Assembly: GCA_030141605.1 (NCBI GenBank)
Contig: JAQGDQ010000188.1
Span: forward strand, 326,001 to 390,000
From: Tubiluchus corallicola
Lineage: Eukaryota; Priapulida; Priapulimorpha; Priapulimorphida; Tubiluchidae
Length of the DNA: 64,000 bases
Direction of reading: 5' to 3'
Shown here piece by piece: positions 28,138 to 64,000 of the stretch. The notes under the pieces are model-generated. The model worked only from the letters and a program-made list of their open reading frames with translations. It had not been told where the DNA came from and did no database searches. The first letter of the stretch is position 1. Every line of letters starts with the position of its first letter. Position numbers and translations under genes: made by a program.

Positions 28138-30576
28138 AAATGGCCATTTAAACAAAGAATATGTTATTATTAACAGCTGCTTAGTAAACAGGATAACAAA
28201 ATTATGAAGGAATCGAATTCGAACTAAAAAAACATTCGATGATCACCCCGAATAAGCACGTGAGTGTCTGAGTAAGTCTGTATAAAAAACAACATTTTTA
28301 ATAGTTCCTGAAAATTTGATGGCAATCGGCCTATGCATGGGTCTGATATTTCATTTTTTAGCTAATATTTAACTAAATAGACACAGTTTTGTACTGAAAC
28401 ATTTTGTGTGAATAAATTTTAGGAACAGCAGTATAGCACAAGTAGCTGTATAGATGTGCATTGCCTACGTGGTTAGGCCCTTCATTTGTTAATTAGCCTT
28501 AGGCCTGTGAACTTTTAATCCACTTCTGCATCTAGGGACGAGTTAAAAAAGCAATGCAAGTGTGTAATTTCACTATTTGCAGTCCTATGAATTTTCAGAT
28601 CAGTTTTTCATTTTTGCTGTTTTATTATTTCTCATTTTTATAAATGATATTACTGACTGTTTCCCCTTGTTCAAGTGACCTTTTATTTGTGACTGAATTT
28701 AAGCCTATTGCCCAATCTTGGTTGAGGTAATAGGTTTAATGGTTAAAGAAACCATGTATTTTTTAAATGATCTCAATGAAATTAAACCTTTCAATGCCAG
28801 GAAACGGCAAACCTGGAGATTTTCCAACCATATAATTTCAAATCGCAAATGCAAAACCTTGTTATGATCTCCCTGGCACCAAAATTTTTTCTCAAAAAAA
28901 GGTTAAACTGATGTAGTTTAATGTTAAAACAATTTTGTAGTAACTTCAATGTTGTTAGTTAACTAAGAACAGCAGAATAGCATCACATGTTTGCTAAATT
29001 TGATTGTTAAACATGATTATTAAACTGGCTGGATGTGATGGTATTCCAAACAGGTTTCAAAATAAAAGTTTTGTATTTTTTAGTTTTATTCAGTAAAACA
29101 AAACAGAATTGCTTATCTTTTTATTTACTGTAAGTACAAGCAAGTAAGAAATGCAATTCTGAAATAAAAATTTAAAATCAAGTTTCGGTTGTACTTGAAA
29201 TAACTAGATGACATGTATCGAGATAAGCCTCCCACTTATGAAGCTTACAACTGAAATTTCTTGCTTTCGCATATAAGAAAGTAAATGTATTTACATTATG
29301 CTTAGTATTAGAGCAAAGGGCCTGCTGTCAGTTGTTATGATTTGTCAGTAAGCCCACCTTGGAATTAACAAATTTGCTTGTTGCTGGCAAGTTCCATGTA
29401 GAAACAATTGTAGCATGTAGACCGTATAACTTGCATAACTAATTTGCTAATGACTTCAATTTGATAGTGCTTCAAGCTATCTATTGATATTCCTCTTGAA
29501 GCGAGTAAAATTGTAGTTCCAGAAAAACTGTTTTACTTTTTGTAGAGAATCGCCAAAAGAAATTAGAAAGTGGAAAAAGAAACAGGCCGAGTAGAAGAAA
29601 ATTTTGTAAAATTTACTGAATTACAAGATGTGTGACTGCAGCTTATGTTATATAAGCTGTAACTCTGCAATTGTCTTATGTGTTGGCAAATGCATACTTG
29701 GAAATGCATCTAATATTTAATAGTATAACTTACCCACACCGCAAAGCGCTAGGTATCACAGTATGTTTGGCTAACACTTGTAGTCTGTGCATACAGAAGT
29801 TCACATAGGCTGGGTGTTTAATGGCTCCTAGCTGTGATCTCAATACTAGAAGCCATTCACTATGTGAAAGATCTGTGGGCTTTCTGTCCACTCTGTCGCT
29901 TCTATGGTCTTTAATAATAGCCTGCACTCAAAAGCCTGCCTCTATTTGATATTTTGAAAAACAGATATTTTGTGGTTCTTAAATTGCTGATTAAAATCTT
30001 ACTGCAGATTAAATTGACGCCTAACATAGTACTAAAACCAATCATTGATTCAATTTGAAGATTGTTGTTTAATCATGTATGACCCAATTATCAACACTAG
30101 TAATCATTCTGTCATCACTCATGTCTTTTCCCATATGAGTAAACTCAGACAATATGTCTCAAGACAAACTCAGACAGAGACTTGAGGATTTTGTTATTGA
30201 AGTGTTTATTGATGCAAAAATGTCTTCCATGATTGAAATAATTTAAAATTTTATGTTATATTTGAAAAAGTTTATATTTTAGTGGGTTAAAACATTTTGT
30301 CTGTACTTCAATTACTTGTATTTGTTTGCCATTGAGCTTATCAGCTACTAAATTGATGACTTTATAAGTAACAACAAAAAGCAGTTGCTGTGCATATCTA
30401 GGCGAACCCACAGGCAATAGCCAAGAATGTTTTTAAATGATGAGAACTTTTTTGTTCTAATATTCATTTATTGTTGCTTTCAGATATCCTTTGTGCACGT
30501 ACATTTACTTTGAACTAGAGGAAGATGAAGAAAGACTTCTTGTAAGGAATTTTGACAAGCTGTAGCCATTGTTCAT

Positions 30577-32658
30577 GTGTATGCATACACTTTCAACGCT
30601 GTACTAATGACATATGTTGGATTAACTTCTATCGGTTCTGTATCACATATAATGCCTATAGCACCACCTTCAAACAGCAGAGGACTGGGGATGTCAAAAT
30701 ACACAAGCTCTTCTTCTGGAAAGTCCTATAAATCGGGATACACTTCAAGTTATACAGGAAAACCACCACCGACTACAAGTCATTCATACACCAGCAGCAA
30801 TACCTACCGAACTGCCGCAAGTGGTATCTATAGCAGTGGTCGATTAAAAGGTTTAGCGTCTTCGGAAAGAAAAGCTTCGGATTCACGTGATATGGGCTAC
30901 CTTAAGCGAGAACCTATGTATTCAACAAGAACTCTAAGTAATAGCTTGCCTGACTATTCAAGAAAGCCACCAATACCAAGAGATTATAGTGTATCCACTG
31001 CTTTTTCAGGTAGTAGTCGTTTTCTGCACCAAAACAGCGACACAAGCAGACGACGGAATTCTGTAAGTTCAGTATATACACCATACAGTAGCCAGAAATC
31101 GTCATCGAATATTAGCAACATAAGTAGTAACTTAGATAAACTCACACTTAATGAAGATGCTAGTGCAAGAAGGTTATCTGAAAATAGATCCTACAAATGG
31201 GAAAGTGGCTATAGGTCACTTACTCCCACTCGATTTCCGTCCACTTCCCATAGTAATAATGCTCACCTGCCATCTCTCACTGGACATTCTGCTATCAGTC
31301 CATCGAGAAGACATTCTCTATTGCACGAACGAGAAATTGATAGCGATTATGTTAGTGAACGTCTTCGATCTCGTGCTCTCAGTTCTGATCGTGATAGCGA
31401 TTATGACACTCACCCTGTTGGTTCATACTTTAGGGAAAAGAAAGATATAGCAAAGGCTTCTATAGGTAACAGCATCGACAATAAAAAGTTAAGCAGCAGT
31501 TCAACTAACACTGATGATATTTCAGTCAATGCAACTTCTAATCTAGATAGTCCTGCCCGCAAATCATCTAGCTCTTTGATCATTTCGGATGCTTTAAGCA
31601 ATAAGGTTTCATCTTCTAGTCACACTGCGGCAGGACTAGTTGGTTTAAAAAATCTTGGTAATACATGCTACATGAATTCAATTTTGCAGTGTCTGAGTAA
31701 TACTAAGCCATTACTTGAGTATTGCATTAAGGAAAATTATGACATTAACAGTTCAAGTTCACAGAAAGGTGCTATCATCAGAGCATTTTCAAGTTTACTA
31801 CAGTCACTTTGGAAAGATGGGCCTAGCTCAATGGGTGCCAGTCCTAATAACTTTAAGTCGGTTTTTCAGAAGTTTGCACCAAGGTTTGCTGGTTACAGTC
31901 AACAGGATGCACAGGAATTTTTACGATATTTGTTACAGGGTTTGCATGACGATATTAATCGAGTAAAATATAGACCCAAAGCCTCTACTTGTGAAGATAA
32001 TGATTACATGAGTGATAGTCAAAAGGCTGCGACTGCATGGAAAAAGTATCTTACATATGATGATAGCAAAATTGTTGATCTCTTCGTCGGTCAGCTGAAA
32101 AGCACTTTGCGTTGCTGTGTTTGCGGATACTCCTCTGTCACATTTGATCCTTTCTGGGATCTCTCAGTTCCAATACCAAAAGGCTCAACTGAGGTAAATT
32201 TGAAAGAATGTCTAAATTTGTTCACTAGAGAAGAAATACTTGATGGAGATGAGAGACCGATGTGTGCCAAATGTAAATCAAGACAAAGATGCACGAAGAC
32301 CTTTTCGGTCTATAAATTGCCAAAAATTCTAGTCATTCACTTGAAGCGCTTTGCAATGCAAAAGTACAGGGCTAAATTAACAACAGTGGTAAATTTTCCC
32401 ACTGGCACATTTGACATGGGTTCTTTCTGTGCAGATGGTAAATTTCTACACAATGCAAGGTACTCATTATATGCTGTGTGTAACCATACAGGTTCTACCC
32501 ATTCTGGCCATTATACTGCCTATTGCAAACAGCCTTATAATGACGAATGGCATGATTTTAACGATTCACGAGTGTCTCCAGTTGCAGTTCACAACCTTGT
32601 GTCATCAATGGCTTATGTGTTGTTTTATGAATTGCATGGATCCCAGTATGGTGATTAA
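30577..32658 (+). CDS. USP2: USP2-like ubiquitin carboxyl-terminal hydrolase, intronless CDS
   Basis: One uninterrupted 693-codon frame. Residues ~1-350 are Ser/Tyr/Arg-rich and unstructured, as in the USP2 N terminus. The USP catalytic domain spans ~353-687. The Cys box GLKNLGNTCYMNSILQCLSN places the nucleophile at C364. QQDAQEFLRYLLQGLHDD is the QQD box. Two CxxC pairs (CCVCGYSS; MCAKCKSRQRC) are the zinc-binding fingers. The His box is HSGHYTAYC (H645) and the third catalytic residue is N662 in HDFNDS. FVGQLKS, FDPFWDLSVPIP and ILVIHLKRF match human USP2 closely, so USP2 is preferred over USP21. The start is uncertain: 30577 is the first in-frame ATG, but 30652 or 30691 could be used. A strong acceptor (TTTCAG before 30484) suggests the 5' UTR is spliced. 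USP2 removes ubiquitin from substrates, including cell-cycle and clock proteins in vertebrates. Confidence 0.95.
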   Translation: MYAYTFNAVLMTYVGLTSIGSVSHIMPIAPPSNSRGLGMSKYTSSSSGKSYKSGYTSSYTGKPPPTTSHSYTSSNTYRTAASGIYSSGRLKGLASSERKASDSRDMGYLKREPMYSTRTLSNSLPDYSRKPPIPRDYSVSTAFSGSSRFLHQNSDTSRRRNSVSSVYTPYSSQKSSSNISNISSNLDKLTLNEDASARRLSENRSYKWESGYRSLTPTRFPSTSHSNNAHLPSLTGHSAISPSRRHSLLHEREIDSDYVSERLRSRALSSDRDSDYDTHPVGSYFREKKDIAKASIGNSIDNKKLSSSSTNTDDISVNATSNLDSPARKSSSSLIISDALSNKVSSSSHTAAGLVGLKNLGNTCYMNSILQCLSNTKPLLEYCIKENYDINSSSSQKGAIIRAFSSLLQSLWKDGPSSMGASPNNFKSVFQKFAPRFAGYSQQDAQEFLRYLLQGLHDDINRVKYRPKASTCEDNDYMSDSQKAATAWKKYLTYDDSKIVDLFVGQLKSTLRCCVCGYSSVTFDPFWDLSVPIPKGSTEVNLKECLNLFTREEILDGDERPMCAKCKSRQRCTKTFSVYKLPKILVIHLKRFAMQKYRAKLTTVVNFPTGTFDMGSFCADGKFLHNARYSLYAVCNHTGSTHSGHYTAYCKQPYNDEWHDFNDSRVSPVAVHNLVSSMAYVLFYELHGSQYGD

Positions 32659-32689
32659 CAATGGAAAACATAGAAGCATAAGCCTGCTT

Positions 32690-32855
32690 AAATGCATATT
32701 ATGAACAGATATGCTAAAGCTACTTAGCAACATATGCACTGCATAAAATGCATGTTATGAATAAATATGTTAGAGCTACTTAGCAACATATGCATTGCAC
32801 AAATGCATATTATGAATAGATATGCAAAAGCTGCTTCTCAACATATGCACTGCAG
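32690..32855. repeat. Three tandem ~55 bp repeats in the USP2 3' UTR
   Basis: Units begin at about 32690, 32746 and 32801 (period 55-56 bp). Each reads roughly AAATGCATATTATGAA then AGATATG, then AAGCTACTTAGCAACATATG and CACTGCA. Divergence is low. The palindromes ATGCAT and CATATG recur in each copy. The array begins about 30 nt after the stop codon. Confidence 0.9.
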
Positions 32856-40215: not shown

Positions 40216-40416
40216 GCTTGGCCAAGTCACGTGACATAAGCGAAAGCGTTAAAAAGGGTTGCAATAAAATGCATTTCCTAGGTAATCAGGCACGCAGATT
40301 TCAGTAATGGCAAAATGATGATCTTGAAACAAGTACCAAGTCAGCAAAGATTTTTCACAGTCAACACTTGCATTTTTGGTCATAATGCAGAATCTTAAGT
40401 TTATGACTTCGTCATT

Positions 40417-40470
40417 ACTATTATTATTGTTGTTGTTGTTGTTGTTGTTGTTATTATTATTTTTATTATT

Positions 40471-40569
<99 letters not shown>
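40417..40569. repeat. (TTA)n/(TTG)n compound trinucleotide array
   Basis: Pure TTA and TTG runs cover about 150 bp, with the uninterrupted TTA tract at 40502-40566. The long leucine frame across it is an artefact of the repeat. Confidence 0.95.
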
Positions 40570-40997
40570 AAGTTTATTGCCTTCGCTGATTCTCCATACT
40601 ACGCACTATGGTCCAATTATAAAAGATTGAAATTCGTGACAATCTCACAATCTACAACCATAGATAATATACTATGTATATGTGTAGTGTACTATGTATG
40701 AATGAATGAAGAATTGCATCATCTAAAGCCACAGCACACTGAATAATAAAATGCATTTAAAATTCGTAGGATACATTAAAATTTAAAATACATTTTGAAA
40801 ATAAGAATTGATTCATTATAAAAGTACAAGCTATGTCGATATCAAATCAGCTTGCAATGCATGGGAGCGTCAGCAACAGGCAAGCTCTTCCAGAAACGTG
40901 CACCACAGATAGAAAAAGTTTTTTCTCCATAGAGTACTGTACGCCCTATAATAAATGAATTTGTTCATTAGCACATCTGTATCTGCATCTAAAATAA

Positions 40998-41117
40998 TAA
41001 TAAAAATCATGATAACGATTATCATCATCATCATCATCATTATCACGATCATGGTTATGATGATGATAATGATAACAATAACAACAGCAACAACGACGAT
41101 GACGATGATGATGATGA

Positions 41118-41211
<94 letters not shown>

Positions 41212-41229
41212 GAATAGTAATAATAATGT
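40998..41229. repeat. (ATC/GAT)-rich tract followed by a (TAA)n array
   Basis: 40998-41118 is cryptic ATC/ATG/GAT/ACA repeat. 41121-41229 is almost pure TAA. The asparagine and isoleucine frames over it are repeat artefacts. The TAA array is the reverse complement of the TTA array at 40502-40566. Confidence 0.95.
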
Positions 41230-41559
41230 TATTAACATTAACAGGGAAACAGCAAATTCTGATAGCTAAAATGCAATTTATTTTAAATGAACTCGACAAC
41301 AAAATACTGGGTTATAAAACTTATAATAAAAGGTCTAGTTTATCAGACAGTCATCGTTCAGATGATCTCCTTGACCAAGACGTACAACATAACTCCCATT
41401 CGTCATCCTACATTCTGGCTGCTAGTGAAGGGATAGAGTGTTACTACATGACCAAGTCATTGCGCTGATAACAGGCAATGAAACTTACATGAGCTCATAT
41501 AATTAGATAGGAAGACACGTAAATGCTTACAATGTATTGAGCATCTTCTTACAGCAGAT

Positions 41560-47600: not shown

Positions 47601-50600
47601 GACAGAAAGGTATGTCATAATTTTTTATTTAGTTGGTATACAGTGCATACATCTTTTCATCATTTTTAAATGAGTCTACAGTTTAAATTATTTTGTTTTA
47701 ATGGATAGCATTGTATCAGTTTGCTTAAATTAATATTTTGTATCTTAAGGCGTATACATTCCAAGATCAGGAAGGAGATAAAACGGTACATATGTGATTG
47801 CACCACATCCCGAGAAGAGAGAAAGCGTGGGTTGTCAGCTTGTGGGACAAATTGTCTTAATCGACTATTAATGATTGAATGTACTTCGCGATGCCCAACT
47901 GGAAGCCACTGCACTAACAAAAGATTTCAAAAGGTTTGTTTTCCTTAATATTGAAGGACTTAACATAGCTTGTTAGAAGTGTTACATTTTCTTCTGCAAT
48001 GATTACAGCTAGGGCAGTGTTGAAAGAAAGCATTTGATGTTTTTTCTTTTTACTAATATTACTGTGCATTTGAACTATAGCTTAGTTTACTTTTTAAGAC
48101 CAAATATTTTGAATTTTATTCATCATTACAACACTTTATTCCTGGTCTGCAAATCAAAAATTGTTACATGTAAGTTCCTGTTTATTGAGATATACACTTT
48201 CTATAATATTTAATTGCAATTTAAGTTGTCAAGTTAATTAAGAATAGTTACGCAATGTAAAAATATGAGGTGACAATTTCCTTCCTTGAAATTCTGATAA
48301 GTTTTCTTTTCCGATGTATGATTTCGTGTAGGGTATGATCCCCGGCAAATAAATTTTGTTGCCAGTGTCAGTTAGCTAAAGTTGCCTAGATTTTACGGTA
48401 TCTGCTGTCTCTTTTTTCTTCTCCTCTCATTACACTTTTCATGCTTCCCTTTTATGTGTCTGTTAAAAGTAATTGGGTCTTACAGTCTTGCATCTCTGTG
48501 AACCAAATGAGCTCTATGTGGATTATATGTCTGGTTTCAGGTTGAAAATGCAAAAGTTGAGCCCTTTAAGACTGAGATGAAGGGTTGGGGCTTAAGGGCC
48601 ACGGAAAATATTGACAAGTAAGTTTCAGCTACTTGAATTTAATTAAACAATAAATATAATACAATGTATTGTCTCTTTTTTGTTTTTTGCTTTACATATT
48701 TTTTTTACTGTTGATGGCATTTGCAACCAGAGTAGTTTCTGAGAGCAAAATGATTGTTCTTGTACTAAGGAATTTCCAATGCAAGTCTTTTTGTTATATT
48801 AAGGGGGACGTTTGTGATGGAGTATGTTGGTGAAGTGCTAAACCATCGACAATTCAAGGAACGAGTAAAACAGTACAACAAGGAAGAAAATAAACATTTT
48901 TACTTCATGGCTCTGCAAAGTGATGAGATTATTGATGCAACTCAAAAGGGCAATATTTCTCGCTTTATTAACCATAGCTGTGATCCTAACTGCGAAACAC
49001 AAAAGGTGGGTTTAATTAATCTGCACGAGTTACTCTATATTCCATGTACATTTAAAAATTCATGTTTATTCTGTAACCTTGTTACTGCTTTAGATTAAAT
49101 CTTATCTCAATGTTTCATTCTTACAAAAATGTGTTTCTTGTGATAAAAGCTTGAGATTGCTTATATTATTCCTTGAGCTGTCTTGATAAGTAGTATGGCA
49201 ACAATCATTTAAAGAGAGTTGATTTGTTAATAACTGCTATGTGATTGAGAGTCCAAAATTTTGTTCAAATTAAAAAATATTTATGTCCTTGCCTGGTAAA
49301 CTCTATTTTTTGTTATTGTGTTCATGTAGTTTTAAATATTGTTTTTTTAAAGCCATAACACTGTATTTTTGTGATATTTCGTTATGTCAACAATTTTAGT
49401 TTGGTACACACTGGGCAAGTGCCCATTTTCATTTATTTTGACATCTTTTCTGCACCAGGACACTCATTGGCAACATTTAGTAATATATCTGATGCTGTCC
49501 TGTGAAATTATATTTTATTCATAATATTGTATTATGCCCTGCACATTTCTTCTGCATTATTTTAGTGGACAGTAAATGGAGCATTGCGTGTTGGATTTTT
49601 TACTACCAAATCTATACAAAAAAATGAAGAACTTTCATTTGACTATCAGTTCCAGAGATATGGGTATGTTTTCTTTGCTAGTACTAGTACTCTTACATAG
49701 TACTAGTTTTTGTAAACTTTTGCCTTGTGTTTTGGTTTTGAAATTATTTAAGGTTTATTTCCTATATTCATTGTAAAAACTACTCCATAGTCATTTCTTG
49801 TTCTGTATCTCGTAGTGTTGCTCCGGATATCCGATTTGTATCCGAAAATGATGGTATTCGCGAGATTCTACTGGTATTCATATTTGTTATTAACCGGTAG
49901 AGAAATGGAGGTTGTTTTAGCCTATGTTTGTGTTTTCAAGGCGAAAATTTTACACATCTTTTTTCGTTTGCGTGTGGTAATACGGTGTATCTTCGGGCTA
50001 GTACTTTAAGATGATAGCCTTTTACTAATTTTTCATTATACGAACTGATCCGCATATTCGATCGGAATTTAGCTAACCTCTCCGGTTATAATCCTTATCC
50101 GGAAGTCAATTTGAGGAAATATCTGATGATAACCGGTATTCGCTGTCCGTCAAAAAAGTGTATCCAGAATAACATTAGTATCTCGGATTTCACCACCTTT
50201 CTGCCAGTCATATCTCTCTTACAGTTAGAAGTTTTAAAATTTTGCTAACAGTTGGTGTATAAAAGGGTACTTTGCATGATCAGAAGTTTAGCATATCTGT
50301 CGATGGTGTTTCGGGCCTGGTTGTAAAGGTTATTTCAAATCTTTTAGTTTTAGTTGGTTATATTTCATCATTAAGCCTTTTCACAGTTTTTGCTCACACA
50401 TGCACTTGCTGTAGGTCAAAGGTTAAGTGTACAACAGCAATGCATCTTAAATACAACTGACACATGATGTGTGGGTAAAGCAAAGCCATCTGCTGCGTTA
50501 GTTCCGTAATGTTACTTGTTTTACTTGGCAATTACTTGTTGAGTATGCATTAGTCTGTGCGTAGAATAGGATTTTGCTTGGGAACAAAGAAAACAAACTA

Positions 50601-56600: not shown

Positions 56601-59600
56601 TTATCGTAATATTGTACTAATAAGCTCGATACTGGTGCATTAATGTGTTATTAATATTTTACACAAACCTTCTTTCATTAAATACATAGTTTCATATTTT
56701 GAATACTTTAATTTTATTTTGTAGGAAGAACTTATGAAGCAGCATGAAATGGATGTAACTGACACAAACTATCCAGATGCCGCTGGTCCTCCCCCTGAAT
56801 ATTACAGTTCTGGATATCCTCCAATACCAAGTGCATCGGATGCACAGTTTGCTCTTCCTGCAGCAGAAATTGATCCTGCTGCTCAGGCAGTTTATTATGG
56901 CCCTGATGGTCAACCCATTCAGTACCATGTGGTACAAGAAGGTCAACCTATTCCCTATCCAGGCCCAGTCGGTGAACCTTATGCTTATCCCTGCCCAGAT
57001 TCTCAACCTATGCAGTATCCCGATTCTAGTGGACCTCAACTTGTGCCATATATTGGTGCAGATGGCCAGCCAGTGCAGTACATTGGACCTGATGGACAGC
57101 CTATCCAGTATCATGTTGGTGCAGATGGTCAACCTGTGCAATATACAGGTCCTGATGGTCAATATTACACAGTTGCTGATCAGCCTTATATAGCTGGTAA
57201 CCAAAACTATGATGATTAAATTAAATAAGGCACTAACTGCATTTATTAACGTGATGAAAATGTGTTTGTTTTTTCTTCTGAACAGCAGTTACATGTTTTG
57301 TAATTTTATTAAAATAATTTGTTATTGCTGCTTTTTGAGCATTGTAGATGCAGTGCAAGTGAGTGAATGTCACTAAAAATTGTTTACTAGTACGTTACTA
57401 TGACAACAAATTCGTGGTAGTGTTCATTAATCATTACTGACCCACTCAACAGTGTGTGTTTCCTAGGGTCCGTAAGTTTAAAATTTATTTTCATACAGTT
57501 TAGTTCAGTTCTCCAAGAATAATTTGTATTATATATTTTCTTTAAAAGTATCAATGAATTTTGCATGTCTGACATAAAATTGTATTGATGTGAAGTGTCA
57601 ACCTGGCAGTGCAAGTAATTTACAAAATATCTCGCTTCATAATATTTTAAAGAGAAATTGGCAATCTAATGTTTTAGCGCGTCACAGTTACACCCCAGTT
57701 TTTGCCCCCAGTTGGCGAAGGTTAGCTGGTCAACCAGAAAGGGTTCGATCTTTAAGTAATAACCAGACAACACAAGTTTGATAAACTTTTGGGTCTACAT
57801 AGGGCGACTGAGAATGGTTGATATAACTCCATAGGAAAGGTCAACCTTTTCTGTTTCCCTAGTCTATATAACTATATAGTCATGAGAATGACGGGGGGGG
57901 GGGGGCGTTAAAGCAATAAATTACTTAAAAACTTTTTTTTAATTATATAGTCATCTAAGTGTAGTGAACATATTTTAACTATATGTAGTGCACAGCATTA
58001 TTGCACCATGGCAATAGAATCATAGTAAATCAAATGTCGATTATGACCAGCAATCTGTCGTAATTGTATTTCTTGGCAAAGGTGGCACACCACCATTGTT
58101 TAAGCACACACTTTTGGGATTACACAAAAGGTAAATGTTTCTTAGCAAAGACATTTTCAATTGTTATTGAGTGTATGTATTTAGAATTTAGATGCTATTT
58201 TCTTAATGAAATTCTTAAGTAGTTTACCCAAAAAGCTACATAGGATGTCAACTTTTTTGATAATCATTAGAGGATATTGTTTTTTTTCAGTTGATGCCGC
58301 GGGTCAGCCAATACAGCCTCCCACTAATTACGATTCTAATATCGGACAGCCATCTCCTGCTATAGTTGTTGGTCAACCCATTCCAACTGTACAGCATGGT
58401 CATACCCTGCCTCCAGGCCCTCCTCCACCACCCAGTTTTGAGGGTCAGCAGCCATCACCAAGTTTATCTCAAAGAGTGCTAACATATGATCAAGGCATTG
58501 CTCAAGCAGTAGAGGCTACCAGGCCTGTTGTTGCTGACCACAATCAACCTTTCCAGGTAATTTTCATGTATTGCAACAGTTGTTTGTAGTTGTTACCATG
58601 AAACCCTGTTTCATTGATGCATTGGAGGTCTGAAACTGCCCCTATTTAGCTTTTGCTTTTTTAATTTGATTAAATGTGAAACAACTGTTTATGTTCATTT
58701 GATTGTTTGGCTTTACATATTGTGATTTGTTTGGGTTGATTTTAGGTACAGCCTCAAGTTGCTGGCTATTTGAATCAACAAGGTCAGTTTGTACAAGCTC
58801 CACCCACCAGTGGTTCCAGCACCACACAGACCATGTTTTACACTACACCTCAGGGCCAGCTGGTATCGTTCCAGCAACCAGTTCAAACTGCAAGTGGCGT
58901 TTCTGCACCAGCAAGTGGACTTGTACTAACTGCTACAGAACAACAACAACAACAAATTCAGCAGTTACAACAGGTACTGCTTATTAGTGTGACTTCATAT
59001 AGTGTTCGTTAGTAGCTGACATTGAATAATGTAGGTCATAAAACATAGTCAGTGGCCATAAACAGGTTTTAAAATCTATTGTAGTGGAAGTTGTGCATGC
59101 AGGCTTCAACAACAAACACTTGTGTACTACATAATGTTTAAAGCTTCTAAAATTGTAGTGCAATTACTATTGATGTAGTAAACGTGTGTTAAACCCAAGG
59201 AATCGACATTTCTTTTCTGGAACTAAAGAATGATTTGGGTGGGTACCAGAGGTCTTCCATAGGAAAAACTGAGATGAATGAATACAAAAAAAATCAAGAT
59301 GCCCATGATTGCTAATTGCTACTCAGTTATTTATTAAAAATTGGTGTCAACTCTTATGTCTTTCTATAACTTCAAAACTATTACTTCCTGCAAACATATA
59401 CTGTTTATTTGTGAATTGAACAAACTCACAGATCCTGAACAATGCCGTGTTGCAGAAAATTTGCTATGTCTGGAATGTAAGAAGTGCAGTACAAAAAAGT
59501 TTGTGGTGTGCCTTGTTATTTGGTAATAGCTATACAAAATATGCCTTGCTTCTTGCTGTTGCACGTTTTTGCTGCTTTCGCACACCCATAACTTTGTGAA

Positions 59601-61915
59601 TTTGTCTGGAATTGCTGCTCGGTTTTTAACACAACCACAATTATTTTTTTAGGAAAATCTGTTATATTTTTTGTTGCTTCACAGTTATTAAAATGATTTT
59701 TTAATCTATGTTATCTGTTTTTTATGTTCTGTACAGCTCAGGTACCTTATGCATTTATTTGCATCACTTTCCTCTGTGTTTCATCTAAATGTATGTTTTT
59801 CATTTTATTTGAGATTTGACCAAATATGTCAAATAAGTTCATAAGTAATTACATGGCCAAATTTGGAGCAATGCACAAGAAGGCTTGGTTACCATTTTCA
59901 GAATGCAGACCAGTTAGTTTTAATTTTCTGTACATGAAAATTTTAAAGTACACGTGCATTAATCTGGGCGCTAAGTTTCATCTAAGTTTTATTCTTAAGT
60001 TGACCTGATGAATAAATATGACCTTGTATCATCACTGCATGCACCACAATTTGTTTGTGCTGCTGCTTTGTTCCAATAAATCCAGTCTGTGCTTCATCTG
60101 CATCTACATCAGTGTTTTATCTAATTATATATTTTTCAGTTTATTTGAGATTTGACCAAATATATCGAACAAGTTTTTCAGTAAATAATTCGTTGGTGGT
60201 TAACTTTATCTTTCTTGATGTTTATTTTATCTTGTTATAATTTCATTTTTTAGTAGTTGATTAAGTACTGCTAATAACAAACCATTGCTTTATTGTAAAC
60301 AGGTGCAGAAAGCATTGCAGTTACAGCAAACTTTAGCCACACTTACCAGCAGCTTAAACCTGACAAAGCCTAACACTCAAGTTGATGAAGAAGAACCGCC
60401 ACCTCCTCCTTCACCACCTAAAGCTAAGCAAGTTAAGCTTCCTCCAAATTGGAAAGCAGCTAAAGACTCTGAAGGCCAAACTTACTACTACCACATAGTC
60501 ACCAGGTAAAAAATGCACTTTTGTCGTCTTAAAATTATTAATATGTCTAATAGGTCAGTACATTTTCTTACGGGGTGTAACAATATCACAGTATTTTATA
60601 TAGACTATTTAATGTTTACTTTAATATGTTTCCTATAATGAATTTTATATTGTACATTAAAATTATTTGGAATGTACTGGTTGATCAAAACAAAATTTCT
60701 TTGACTTGTTGAGCCTTTCGCTTTTTAAAATTTAATATCTGAGAATGTTCTTTGTGGGTTGCATTATTTATTCTTGTAAAATCATCTCATGGTACTTCAT
60801 CATCCTTTCTCTAGAATTTTGTTGTCAATTTATGTGAAGCCGTTTCAAGTCTTTGCCATAAAATATCAATGCCAATCTTATTGAAAGAAGTCTAAGCATT
60901 TTGCAGTTACACAGCAACAAACAGTTGTTTTTCGGTTTTACGTGAAACTGACATTTTATTAAATTTTAGACAAACTCAATGGGATCCACCTGTATGGGAA
61001 AGTGAAAGTTCTAATGAAAAAGACGACACACCTACTGTCGATGAAGAAGTTTTAGTAAGCAAGCATAAAGAAAAGAAAAAATTAACAACTGCTGCTGCTG
61101 ATACTTCTAGTGAGGCAGCAAGAAAAATAAAAGAACAGTTCCGAGCCAAGGTAAGATGTTGCTTTGCTGCTCTAATGTACCCTTTTTTCAAGCCATTTTG
61201 ATACGTATACTTTACTACTTTTATATAAACAAAATATATGTGGTTCCGATTTCTGTGGCAAATAAAACGTATGATTCTAAATTGTTTTTTCAGATGTCAA
61301 GTCATATAGTGGCCTGTCTTAATCCGTACCGCAAACCAGACTGCAAAGTTGGATATATATCTAATACAGAGGAATTCAAACATTTAGCACGAAAGGTTAG
61401 CTTTAACCTAAAAGTCACAGTAGTACGAGCATCAATTTATGATTGTTTTTCTTTTGCATTATTCTGCTGGCTTGGGGGATAAAAAGTTCCTTTGACATCT
61501 TGAATGTACTTTGAAATTCGTTGGTTTCTACACGGTGAAATTATATTCGTTATTATAAACTATCAGCAATGGTCTAAAAATGGGTCAACCAATGGACTAA
61601 AAATAAAATGTAAAAAATTAAATAGTTTACACTGATTGCCACATGGGTTTTGTTTTAAATGAACTTTCGAGTTATTTGATCATTTAGCACTAGTTCTTTA
61701 TGCATTAGAGAATTTTACGCCTGCACATCATTGTATTTGTTGCATTATTTCAGTTAACACATGCAGTGATGAGCAAAGAAATGAAACACTGTTATACCGT
61801 GGAAGACTTGGAAGTGAACGAGAGTGTTAAGCACAAAACACGAGATTACGTTCGTAAATACATGGCCAAATTTGGAGCAGTGTACAAAAAGGCTTCGTCA
61901 CCATTTTTAGAATAG
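44662..61915 (+). CDS. SETD2: SETD2, histone H3 lysine-36 trimethyltransferase
   Basis: Coding exons: 44662-44702, 45618-47609, 47750-47933, 48541-48617, 48804-49005, 49566-49663, 51184-51349, 51696-51824, 52050-52160, 52594-53610, 55029-55167, 55537-55711, 56444-56534, 56725-57196, 58291-58556, 58746-58973, 60303-60505, 60970-61150, 61294-61395, 61754-61915. They total 6036 nt, 2011 aa (human 2564). The N-terminal third is disordered with a K/E-rich coil near residues 440-520. AWS spans 690-739 (CDC, CGTNCLNRLLMIEC). SET spans 740-864 with GWGLRA, RFINHSCDPNCE (NHSC 821-824) and FDYQF (Y859). Post-SET has Cys 871, 873 and 878. Next come a helical region (EIKRLQETGIKNRTHVLNLA) and an RS/H-rich stretch. 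Pro/Gln-rich repeats precede the WW domain, about 1842-1874 (LPPNWKAAKDSEGQTYYYHI). The SRI domain, 1925-2011 (CLNPYRKPDCKVG), binds phosphorylated RNA polymerase II CTD in the family. The start is the first in-frame ATG of its exon; upstream coding exons cannot be excluded. Confidence 0.96.
49813..50165. repeat. Possible DNA-transposon remnant in a SETD2 intron
   Basis: A block unlike the surrounding AT-rich intron has repeated TCCGGATATCCG, TATCCGAAAATG, ATCCGCATATTCG, TTATCCGGAAG and AACCGGTATTCG motifs. Similar ATCCG-rich words occur at 25090-25160 and 25480-25730. I could not define terminal repeats or target duplications, so the class is open; hAT-like is a guess. Confidence 0.35.
56899..57177 (+). 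repeat. In-frame G-x-D-G-Q-P-x-Q-Y repeats in SETD2
   Basis: The exon at 56725-57196 encodes repeats of about 11-13 residues: YGPDGQPIQYHV, EGQPIPYPGPVG, GADGQPVQYIG, GPDGQPIQYHV, GADGQPVQYTG, GPDGQYYT. Codon use varies between copies (GGTCAACCC, GGCCAGCCA, GGACAGCCT), so the repeat is old or kept by selection on protein rather than freshly expanded DNA. Confidence 0.85.
57893..57905. repeat. G13 homopolymer in a SETD2 intron
   Basis: An uninterrupted run of 13 G in an otherwise AT-rich intron. The exact length may be affected by sequencing error. Confidence 0.8.
59783..60190 (+). pseudogene. Partial duplicate of the SETD2 last exon and 3' UTR within a SETD2 intron
   Basis: From about 59836 to 60090 the sequence parallels the true last exon and 3' UTR (about 61847-62045). 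ACATGGCCAAATTTGGAGCA occurs in both. The translation YMAKFGAMHKKAWLPFSE matches the genuine YMAKFGAVYKKASSPFLE. The following 3' UTR words CAGTTAGTTTT, CTGTACATGAAAATTTT and CTGCATGCA also match in order. The stop codon of the original is lost in the copy (TGC replaces it). The copy is bracketed by direct repeats of about 75 bp (59783-59850 and 60116-60190) sharing TTTATTTGAGATTTGACCAA. No convincing acceptor precedes it, so it is unlikely to be used as an exon. Confidence 0.85.
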
Positions 61916-64000
61916 ATCAGTTAGTTTTGATTGTCTGTACATGAAAATTTTTAAATTACATGCATATTAAACTGAGCCCTAAACTTCAGCTTAATTAATT
62001 TTATGTACTGTATGCATCCTGACTGCATGCATCCAGTCTGTAAATATAGGAATTTAAGTAAGGTGAGACATTTCTTTCAAGGTGAGACAAATAGTTTTAC
62101 CTATCTAACTGACCTAGTTCGTAAGCAATGTACTGTAGAAATTCAACAATACACCAAATTTTTGACCTACAATGCTTTATTCTGAGGAGATTGACTGACG
62201 ATATGCACTCTCTTTTTCCTCAAAGAGTTTTTACTGTGCTTGCAGCTAGAATCTGTTCAATCAATAATGCTTCAGCTCATGTTGCCTGGTGGTTTAGTTT
62301 TACAAAAAACTAAAACCCAAAGGTTACACACTAAAACAACTGATTGTAAACTACCTTGCATCACATTGTAAATATAACCTAGTGTAGTCACCCTACAAGT
62401 ATAAATAAAATCAATTGAATTAATTATTAAATAAAACTAATTATAGTGTGGTTAGTTACTTTTAGAAATGTACATGAAACTACTGCATTTAAAGAAATAA
62501 GTTCAAAATCGTTGAAAATTGTACATAGATTACTGCATCGTGTCTGTTCTAGTTAAATTTAGACTGCAGTGCTTGTATAGTGCTTGAATAGCCTTTCAGA
62601 TTGTAAATAATGACACTAGTTAAATTTGATTATTTGTACACGATCGTGTATTTTACCTTCAACGTTTTTATCAGTGTTGGTTGAATATTGATGTGTTTGT
62701 ATAGTGTTGATTGAATGTTTTATTGGTTATTATTATAAATGTTTTAACATGGTAATATTTGGCAAGAAGTAAAAGCAGTTATACACTAATATCTTTTGCC
62801 TAAAGTGTACTAGAAAGCTGAAAATAGTGTGGTTCATAAGAACAAAAAACAAATTCATCACAAGTTTTTCTTATCTCATTGTAAATTAACACGTTAATAT
62901 GCAGAGATAAAAACTGGTTTTTGCCTTCATATTCTAGCTGATGTGAATTCACTTGTATAATCTAGGCTGTACTAAAGTGAATATAAATGTGCACAATTTG
63001 CTGTGCTTGAGCACAATTAGACCTGGACAAATTACTCTAATGATGTATAACACTATATAATTCTGTATTCATAAAACAATAGGAAAATGACAACAGTTTA
63101 TTTCTAAATGACAACATCATTAGCTAATGAGGACTGTCTGTCCCGAAATTTGAACAAACGTCAATGCATAACTTGAATATGAATATGTACTAATCAGTGA
63201 AATACCTCACATTGTGTTTGTCGTTTAGAAATGAAATGTGATCTTGCCATATTTGTAAATTGTAATGTAATGTGTTCTGTGGACAGCATTTAATGTCTGT
63301 AGTTGTTTTTTATAATTTAACTGTTTACTTGTTTGAATTTGCACAGTTGTAGTTGAATTAGTCAATAACAGCTTTTTCAAACCCAAATTTAAATTTCAAA
63401 GAACATATTTCAGTAAATATTCCAAAACAGAACATTCATTTAACTTAACTGCTTAGTTGTTATAAATTCCTTAAATTATGTTCCTATAATTGAAAGAATT
63501 TGGGAGATGTCGTTAAGCCTTTAAAATTAATAGTGCATGTAATTTTACCACTGTGAAAAATAATAATATACATTGTGTTACAATTATTATGTGTGTTTAT
63601 TATATATAATAATGGATTTCACTTACTCAAACTTACTAATTAAAAAGATGTTGATTGACCCCTATGGATTGATCATATGGCAAGCTATGTTAATTTTCTG
63701 CTACTTAACTGAACTTTCTGGCTTCCATGTAAAACTTTTTTCATGGAAATTAGTTATTTTCTGTCCATTTGCATGTGGACTCAAGTGCATTCCCTGTGTT
63801 ACTTGACATCAGCAAAATCAAAATTTGTGTTGAGCATGCGGCCCTGCATACTTCCTTATGTTAAGTAACTGTAACTCTGTAAGCTGTTTGATATGAAGCT
63901 TCAACAAATTTTATGAATGTCTGTGTTCCTCTTAGACTGGTAATGTTCAACAATGTTTCTTTGTGATCAGTTGCTACTTAAGACTAAACTGTCATTCACA
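61916..64000. other. SETD2 3' UTR and downstream sequence
   Basis: AT-rich sequence with no coding gene recognised. AATAAA at 62404-62409, and another about 30 bp later, are plausible SETD2 polyadenylation signals, giving a 3' UTR of roughly 500 nt. The frame at 63573-63806 has no domain I recognise. Confidence 0.6.

Follow-up and report, generated by a model that had tools for sequence, protein, structure and literature searches.

An intron of a SETD2-like gene of the priapulid Tubiluchus corallicola holds the end of the same gene's last exon in a second, decayed copy, together with the proximal part of its 3' untranslated region (UTR), between two long direct repeats, and this repeat-insert-repeat arrangement was very probably produced by a single old event of local DNA repair or replication template switching. 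The window is the whole 64,000-nucleotide stretch analysed (contig JAQGDQ010000188.1, positions 326,001 to 390,000, assembly GCA_030141605.1); positions below are those of the window unless a contig is named, and all features of the SETD2 locus lie on its forward strand. Within the intron 58974-60302, the copy at 59845-60091 corresponds to 61854-62042 (19 final codons plus proximal 3' UTR), in the same orientation, with the copy upstream and the two start points 2,009 bp apart. A decayed copy in the original orientation, about 2 kb upstream of the real exon, was what the sequence-only reading had proposed, and the location it gave was right; its limits had to be redrawn, since the whole structure spans about 59754-60187 and the source runs to about 62042.

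The copy and its source exon

Alignment of the copy with the source showed 89.4% identity over 180 gap-free columns, with 76 gap columns that fall mostly in the right half, and a blastn core within it (59845-59983 against 61854-61991) reached 82.9% over 140 columns with an E value of 8e-35. The alignment scored 168, as against 38 for the best of 500 dinucleotide shuffles. Separate stretches (the part right of a 20-base core, UTR, coding part, repeats and left flank) were each compared with 1000 shuffles: the coding part scored 85 against a shuffle maximum of 28, the UTR by itself 86 against 36, and the portion to the right of the core 123 against 37, so that the resemblance outside that core is not at the level of shuffled sequence. 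The template portion of the UTR can accordingly be drawn at 61916-62042. Exon similarity to the left of 61854 scored 12, which 960 of 1000 shuffles matched, and the left edge of the copy therefore looks sharp; one alignment crosses a 4-base gap and adds 7 letters on that side, 6 of them alike, an extension taken as chance or additional pre-existing homology, insufficient to count. Nothing copied from upstream of 61854 stood above shuffles, and a larger tandem duplication with a period of about 2,009 bp was rejected. The insert proper lies at 59852-60091 and has lost the stop codon; with a 7-nt overlap counted, the copy measures 247 bp and the source 189 bp, a difference of 58 bp.

In the 343.5-Mb genome no third place was found for the insert or the exon, only the source and the copy. 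The search passes over very common words and simple repeats and so rules out a family of recognisable copies, not all traces; a dispersed repeat was dismissed, as no further place of insert, exon or flanking repeat turned up. Between 55000 and 64000, Rfam returned no matches and Tandem Repeats Finder no rows.

The gene itself carries its WW and SRI domains in its last exons, and a SET domain that probably belongs to it lies upstream. The last four exons (60303-60505, 60970-61150, 61294-61395 and 61754-61915) are in frame when joined, and their translation of 215 residues matches the Pfam WW (7.6e-13) and SRI (2.2e-24) families, the latter over residues 127-207 (81 residues). Most of the WW match is encoded by exon 60303-60505, which the intron with the copy precedes, and most of the first half of the SRI match by exon 61294-61395. 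The end of SRI lies in the terminal coding exon 61754-61915, which stops with TAG at 61913-61915 and matches the copy from 61854 on; the Pfam search placed the SRI match of this exon at G000:C1173:387751-387891. Among solved structures in the PDB, the SRI part is best matched by 2a7o (E 1.3e-37) and by 9egz, a SETD2 chain (E 3.5e-36); 2a7o was deposited under the name Huntingtin interacting protein B, a synonym of SETD2, and a third match, to multicystatin (E 0.00075), was judged chance. A SET domain (Pfam 2.2e-14) was found in the open frame 48769-49095, which from its order and strand we infer to be part of the same gene. A further SRI-domain match in the genome lies at G000:C1743:345450-345563 (locus L024, 47.9 bits), within an open frame of 875 residues; we take this to be possibly RECQL5, an SRI-domain protein.

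Flanking repeats, junctions and the proposed origin

The insert is flanked by a left repeat at 59754-59851 and a right repeat at 60093-60187, whose pairwise alignment stretches the starts to 59750 and 60090, and both repeats adjoin the insert. They agree at 79.6% over 98 columns by blastn, or 82% over 95 gap-free columns, and their score of 100 was reached by none of 1000 shuffles, of which the best scored 43. The repeats had been described earlier as about 75 bp long; their presence held, and their length is in fact 95-98 bp. Outside these two places the repeat was not found in the assembly, and a weak third copy at 59403-59424 (E 0.35) was judged chance.

At the left edge, the repeat end ...TTTCAGTAAATA and the exon ...GTTCGTAAATACATGG have 7 nt in common. 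This microhomology reads GTAAATA in the right repeat (60181-60187) and in the exon (61854-61860), and GTAATTA at the junction itself (59845-59851); by eye it grows to 10 of 11 when one base is skipped. A 7-nt identity occurred at 0.00019 of random position pairs in the window (200,000 pairs). At the right edge only TG, about 2 nt, is shared by eye. The insert ends ...TCCAGTCTG immediately before the right repeat, and no poly(A) is seen there.

With its donor close by, microhomology, a target duplication and no poly(A), the insert points to DNA repair synthesis templated by neighbouring sequence. What we infer beyond these observations is that one event took place, that the break was staggered and in which direction copying ran. 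The intron would have suffered either a break whose ends were offset by about 98 bp or the stalling of a replication fork, and a free 3' end in GTAAATA would have annealed to the identical 7-mer of the terminal exon 2 kb downstream. Some 190-250 bp would then have been copied rightwards, through the stop codon and into the 3' UTR, after which the new strand would have joined up with the far side of the break, some 98 bp upstream of its point of departure and with an overlap of about 2 nt, TG. Rejoining of this kind would leave the repeat-insert-repeat structure and duplicate the landing site of about 98 bp. Copying may instead have run in the opposite direction, priming by the left 3' end being the simple reading. 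Both synthesis-dependent strand annealing (SDSA) and a fork that changed templates and resumed 98 bp behind the point it had left would be compatible with the sequence.

The terms of comparison come from proximal repair-mediated duplications attributed to SDSA in vertebrates (Pace et al. 2009, PMC2671141). According to the available part of that paper, the donor lay within 5 kb for 824 of 1,136 inserts, which averaged 162 bp and reached 619 bp at most; microhomology amounted to 2-9 nt; and in one case, ACSBG2, an intron had received a copy of an exon of the same gene in the opposite orientation. The SETD2 copy resembles these in having its donor within 5 kb and more than 50 bp from the acceptor (2,009 bp), in its microhomology of 7 nt on the left and about 2 nt on the right without poly(A), and in its size (247 bp now, 189 bp in the source), which falls inside the published range of 50 to about 619 bp. 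It differs from them in keeping the donor's orientation, in lying outside any known transposon and in being known from one genome. Target duplications appear in 6 of the 39 proximal cases there (a sum of rows of Table 1) and measure 4-21 nt, a reported range and no requirement, which the 95-98 bp found here exceed.

Other published systems share some of these traits. Where breaks carry complementary 3' overhangs, fill-in of the staggered ends (PMC8355091) likewise duplicates the stretch between the nicks, and the long repeat would fit such a fill-in at a widely staggered break; the events reported there are small tandem duplications and insertions below 100 bp, whereas about 240 bp of templated sequence stands between the repeats of the SETD2 intron. 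Daphnia neointrons (PMC4202315) likewise show direct repeats around an insertion at a staggered break, unlike the present case in that those repeats are 4-12 bp long, while the SETD2 insert sits within an existing intron and has a known template. Class 2 templated sequence insertion polymorphisms (PMC5110952) are similar in being patches from elsewhere with microhomology and no poly(A), and dissimilar in having no target-site duplication, distant templates and a proposed derivation from RNA, as far as the accessible text describes them. PMC6097286 and PMC4812662 are relevant, from what could be seen of them, just through their citation of Vaughn & Bennetzen 2014. None of the papers listed for SDSA and repair-mediated duplication in invertebrates was on such a case, judged by title and the start of the abstract, which is not a claim of absence from print.

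Three findings weigh against a single repair event. The target duplication of about 98 bp is far above the ranges given in PMC2671141 (4-21 nt) and PMC4202315 (4-12 bp); the copy has 58 bp net that the present source is without; and the divergence estimates are nearly two-fold apart. Kimura two-parameter distances were 0.206 (0.114-0.326, 95 columns) between the repeats and 0.114 (0.070-0.169, 180 columns) between copy and source, although the mismatches behind them (17 of 95 and 19 of 180) do not differ significantly (Fisher p = 0.09). The gap leaves room for two events, namely an ordinary tandem duplication of about 98 bp of the intron and a later templated insertion exactly between its copies, an account that agrees with the somewhat greater divergence of the repeat pair and with the further local duplications nearby (of 13 direct pairs within 5 kb, found over 213.5 kb, 4 belong neither to one tandem array nor to SETD2). 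Such an insertion, however, must have hit the repeat junction within about 1 base, whereas one event covers both features, and the two-event history is considered unlikely. Constraint on the source would by itself lower the divergence between copy and source, so that the values would fit one event with a constrained source without proving it.

A 5'-truncated SETD2 mRNA could also have been retrocopied by a long interspersed nuclear element (LINE), leaving a long target-site duplication and, in the AATAAA at 60075, the old poly(A) signal. The truncated 5' end with direct repeats on both sides would agree with this, as would the position of that hexamer about 11 nt ahead of the right edge of the insert, and the absence of introns is uninformative because a single exon contains the whole copied segment. 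Nevertheless, the insert edge bears no poly(A), the copy lies 2 kb away from the sequence it was made from and points the same way, no further copy having been found in 343.5 Mb, the repeats are about 98 bp long, and the 5' edge shows 7 nt of microhomology to the exon; poly(A) or poly(T) was likewise seen in none of the 39 proximal cases inspected in PMC2671141, according to the part of it available. A retrocopy is hence very improbable. The sequence-only reading had likewise favoured local duplication or template switching, from a start inside the exon and the lack of a poly(A) tail, and the two genome places and the microhomology now speak for the same origin.

Direct repeats of about 98 bp that enclose an interior of about 240 bp, and that start with TG if extended to 59750 and 60090, might also recall a terminal-repeat retrotransposon in miniature (TRIM), or another element that captured a SETD2 fragment. 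TRIM and other long terminal repeat elements are recognised by a short target-site duplication and by repeat ends of the form TG...CA. By eye, no short target-site duplication is present in the flanks ...TACCTTA and ATTCGTT..., and the ending of the right repeat is ...AAATA, not CA. Furthermore, the genome search found the repeat at no more than two places, both in the SETD2 locus, and the interior opens directly with SETD2 coding sequence, which leaves a captured element with an almost negligible probability. A single repair event thus remains the preferred origin, of an ordinary kind, a proximal repair-mediated duplication, with an unusually long target duplication.

Decay of the copy and its possible use as a terminal exon

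The 19 copied codons differ from the exon by 6 non-synonymous and 1 synonymous changes, of which the first non-synonymous one sits in the junction overlap and may derive from the repeat. The motif GAVYK of the exon is identical in both SETD2 chains matched in the PDB, and the V-to-M and Y-to-H changes therefore arose most likely in the copy. Judged from these substitutions, the copy appears to have decayed without detectable constraint.

The sequence-only reading had supposed that the copy, if spliced in, would give an alternative end to SRI. This did not hold: the copy lies 5' of the exons that encode WW and the greater part of SRI; it therefore cannot provide a complete SRI with another end and, if used, would shorten SETD2. 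The upstream exon ends on a codon boundary at 58973, and splicing from there to the copy and ending would lose WW and all but about the 11 last residues of the SRI match.

A related proposal, compatible with a repair origin and not exclusive of it, is that the copy functions as an alternative last exon or as an intronic site of polyadenylation, yielding SETD2 without WW and SRI. The copy is in sense orientation; the phase of the exon end at 58973 suits an AG at 59836-59837, with an open frame through the copy (59820-60008) as candidate cryptic terminal exon; AATAAA occurs at 60011-60016 and 60075-60080; and another AG, at 59812-59813, is preceded by 15 of 20 pyrimidines. The in-phase AG is nonetheless weak, with 10 of 20 pyrimidines as against 11-14 of 20 at four SETD2 acceptors, and from the AG at 59812-59813 the frame meets TGA at its second codon. 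Coding constraint is not seen in the 19 codons, and AATAAA is frequent in DNA of 34% GC. A working terminal exon or poly(A) site is consequently highly improbable. A regulated isoform lacking WW and SRI, made by splicing from 58973 to the copy or by cleavage at an AATAAA of the copy, would likewise be highly improbable; if it existed, the methyltransferase would be cut off from elongating RNA polymerase II by an internal terminator made by repair.

By alignment, both hexamers belong to blocks missing from the present source, except for the last base of the second. The nearest AATAAA of the source lie at 62404 and 62430, with an ATTAAA at 61966, and the SETD2 3' UTR may have lost early poly(A) signals after the event, or the copy may have gained them. 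A second donor for the extra blocks at 60040-60082 and 59995-60022 was sought over 8 kb to the left and rightwards to the window end, where nothing rose above shuffles; the best scores were reached by 26 of 200 and 108 of 200 of these.

Local duplications nearby and meaning of the site

Local duplications were surveyed over 213,499 bp of contig C1173. At an E value of 1e-8, 11 direct pairs were found within 20 kb, of which 8 were listed and 3, with more than 3 overlapping matches, were set aside; among the pairs listed at this threshold only the SETD2 copy is enclosed by a listed repeat pair, and repeats of lesser length would escape. At 1e-5 there were 13 direct pairs within 5 kb (7 from one tandem array, 2 from SETD2 and 4 others) and 4 inverted pairs. 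An apparent repeat-filler-repeat at 32668-32854 is really a tandem array of three copies (period about 56), and it lies just past the end of an open frame for a UCH-type ubiquitin protease (30556-32658). Long trinucleotide microsatellites occupy 40249-41311; read on both strands, they give open frames of poly-N, poly-L and poly-I. On C1173, tandem duplications at about 224518-224886 and 413449-413746, with periods of 184 and 148 bp and identities of 99.5% and 97.3%, are apparently young, which suggests that local duplication is still active in this genome.

The SETD2 intron thus offers an old, clear case, a single site at which the donor, the microhomology and a long target duplication are all still legible, and it shows a route by which a terminal exon and its 3' UTR can enter an intron of their own gene. 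While the locus itself is a decayed repair scar, such planting is a possible way for genes to gain internal poly(A) sites.
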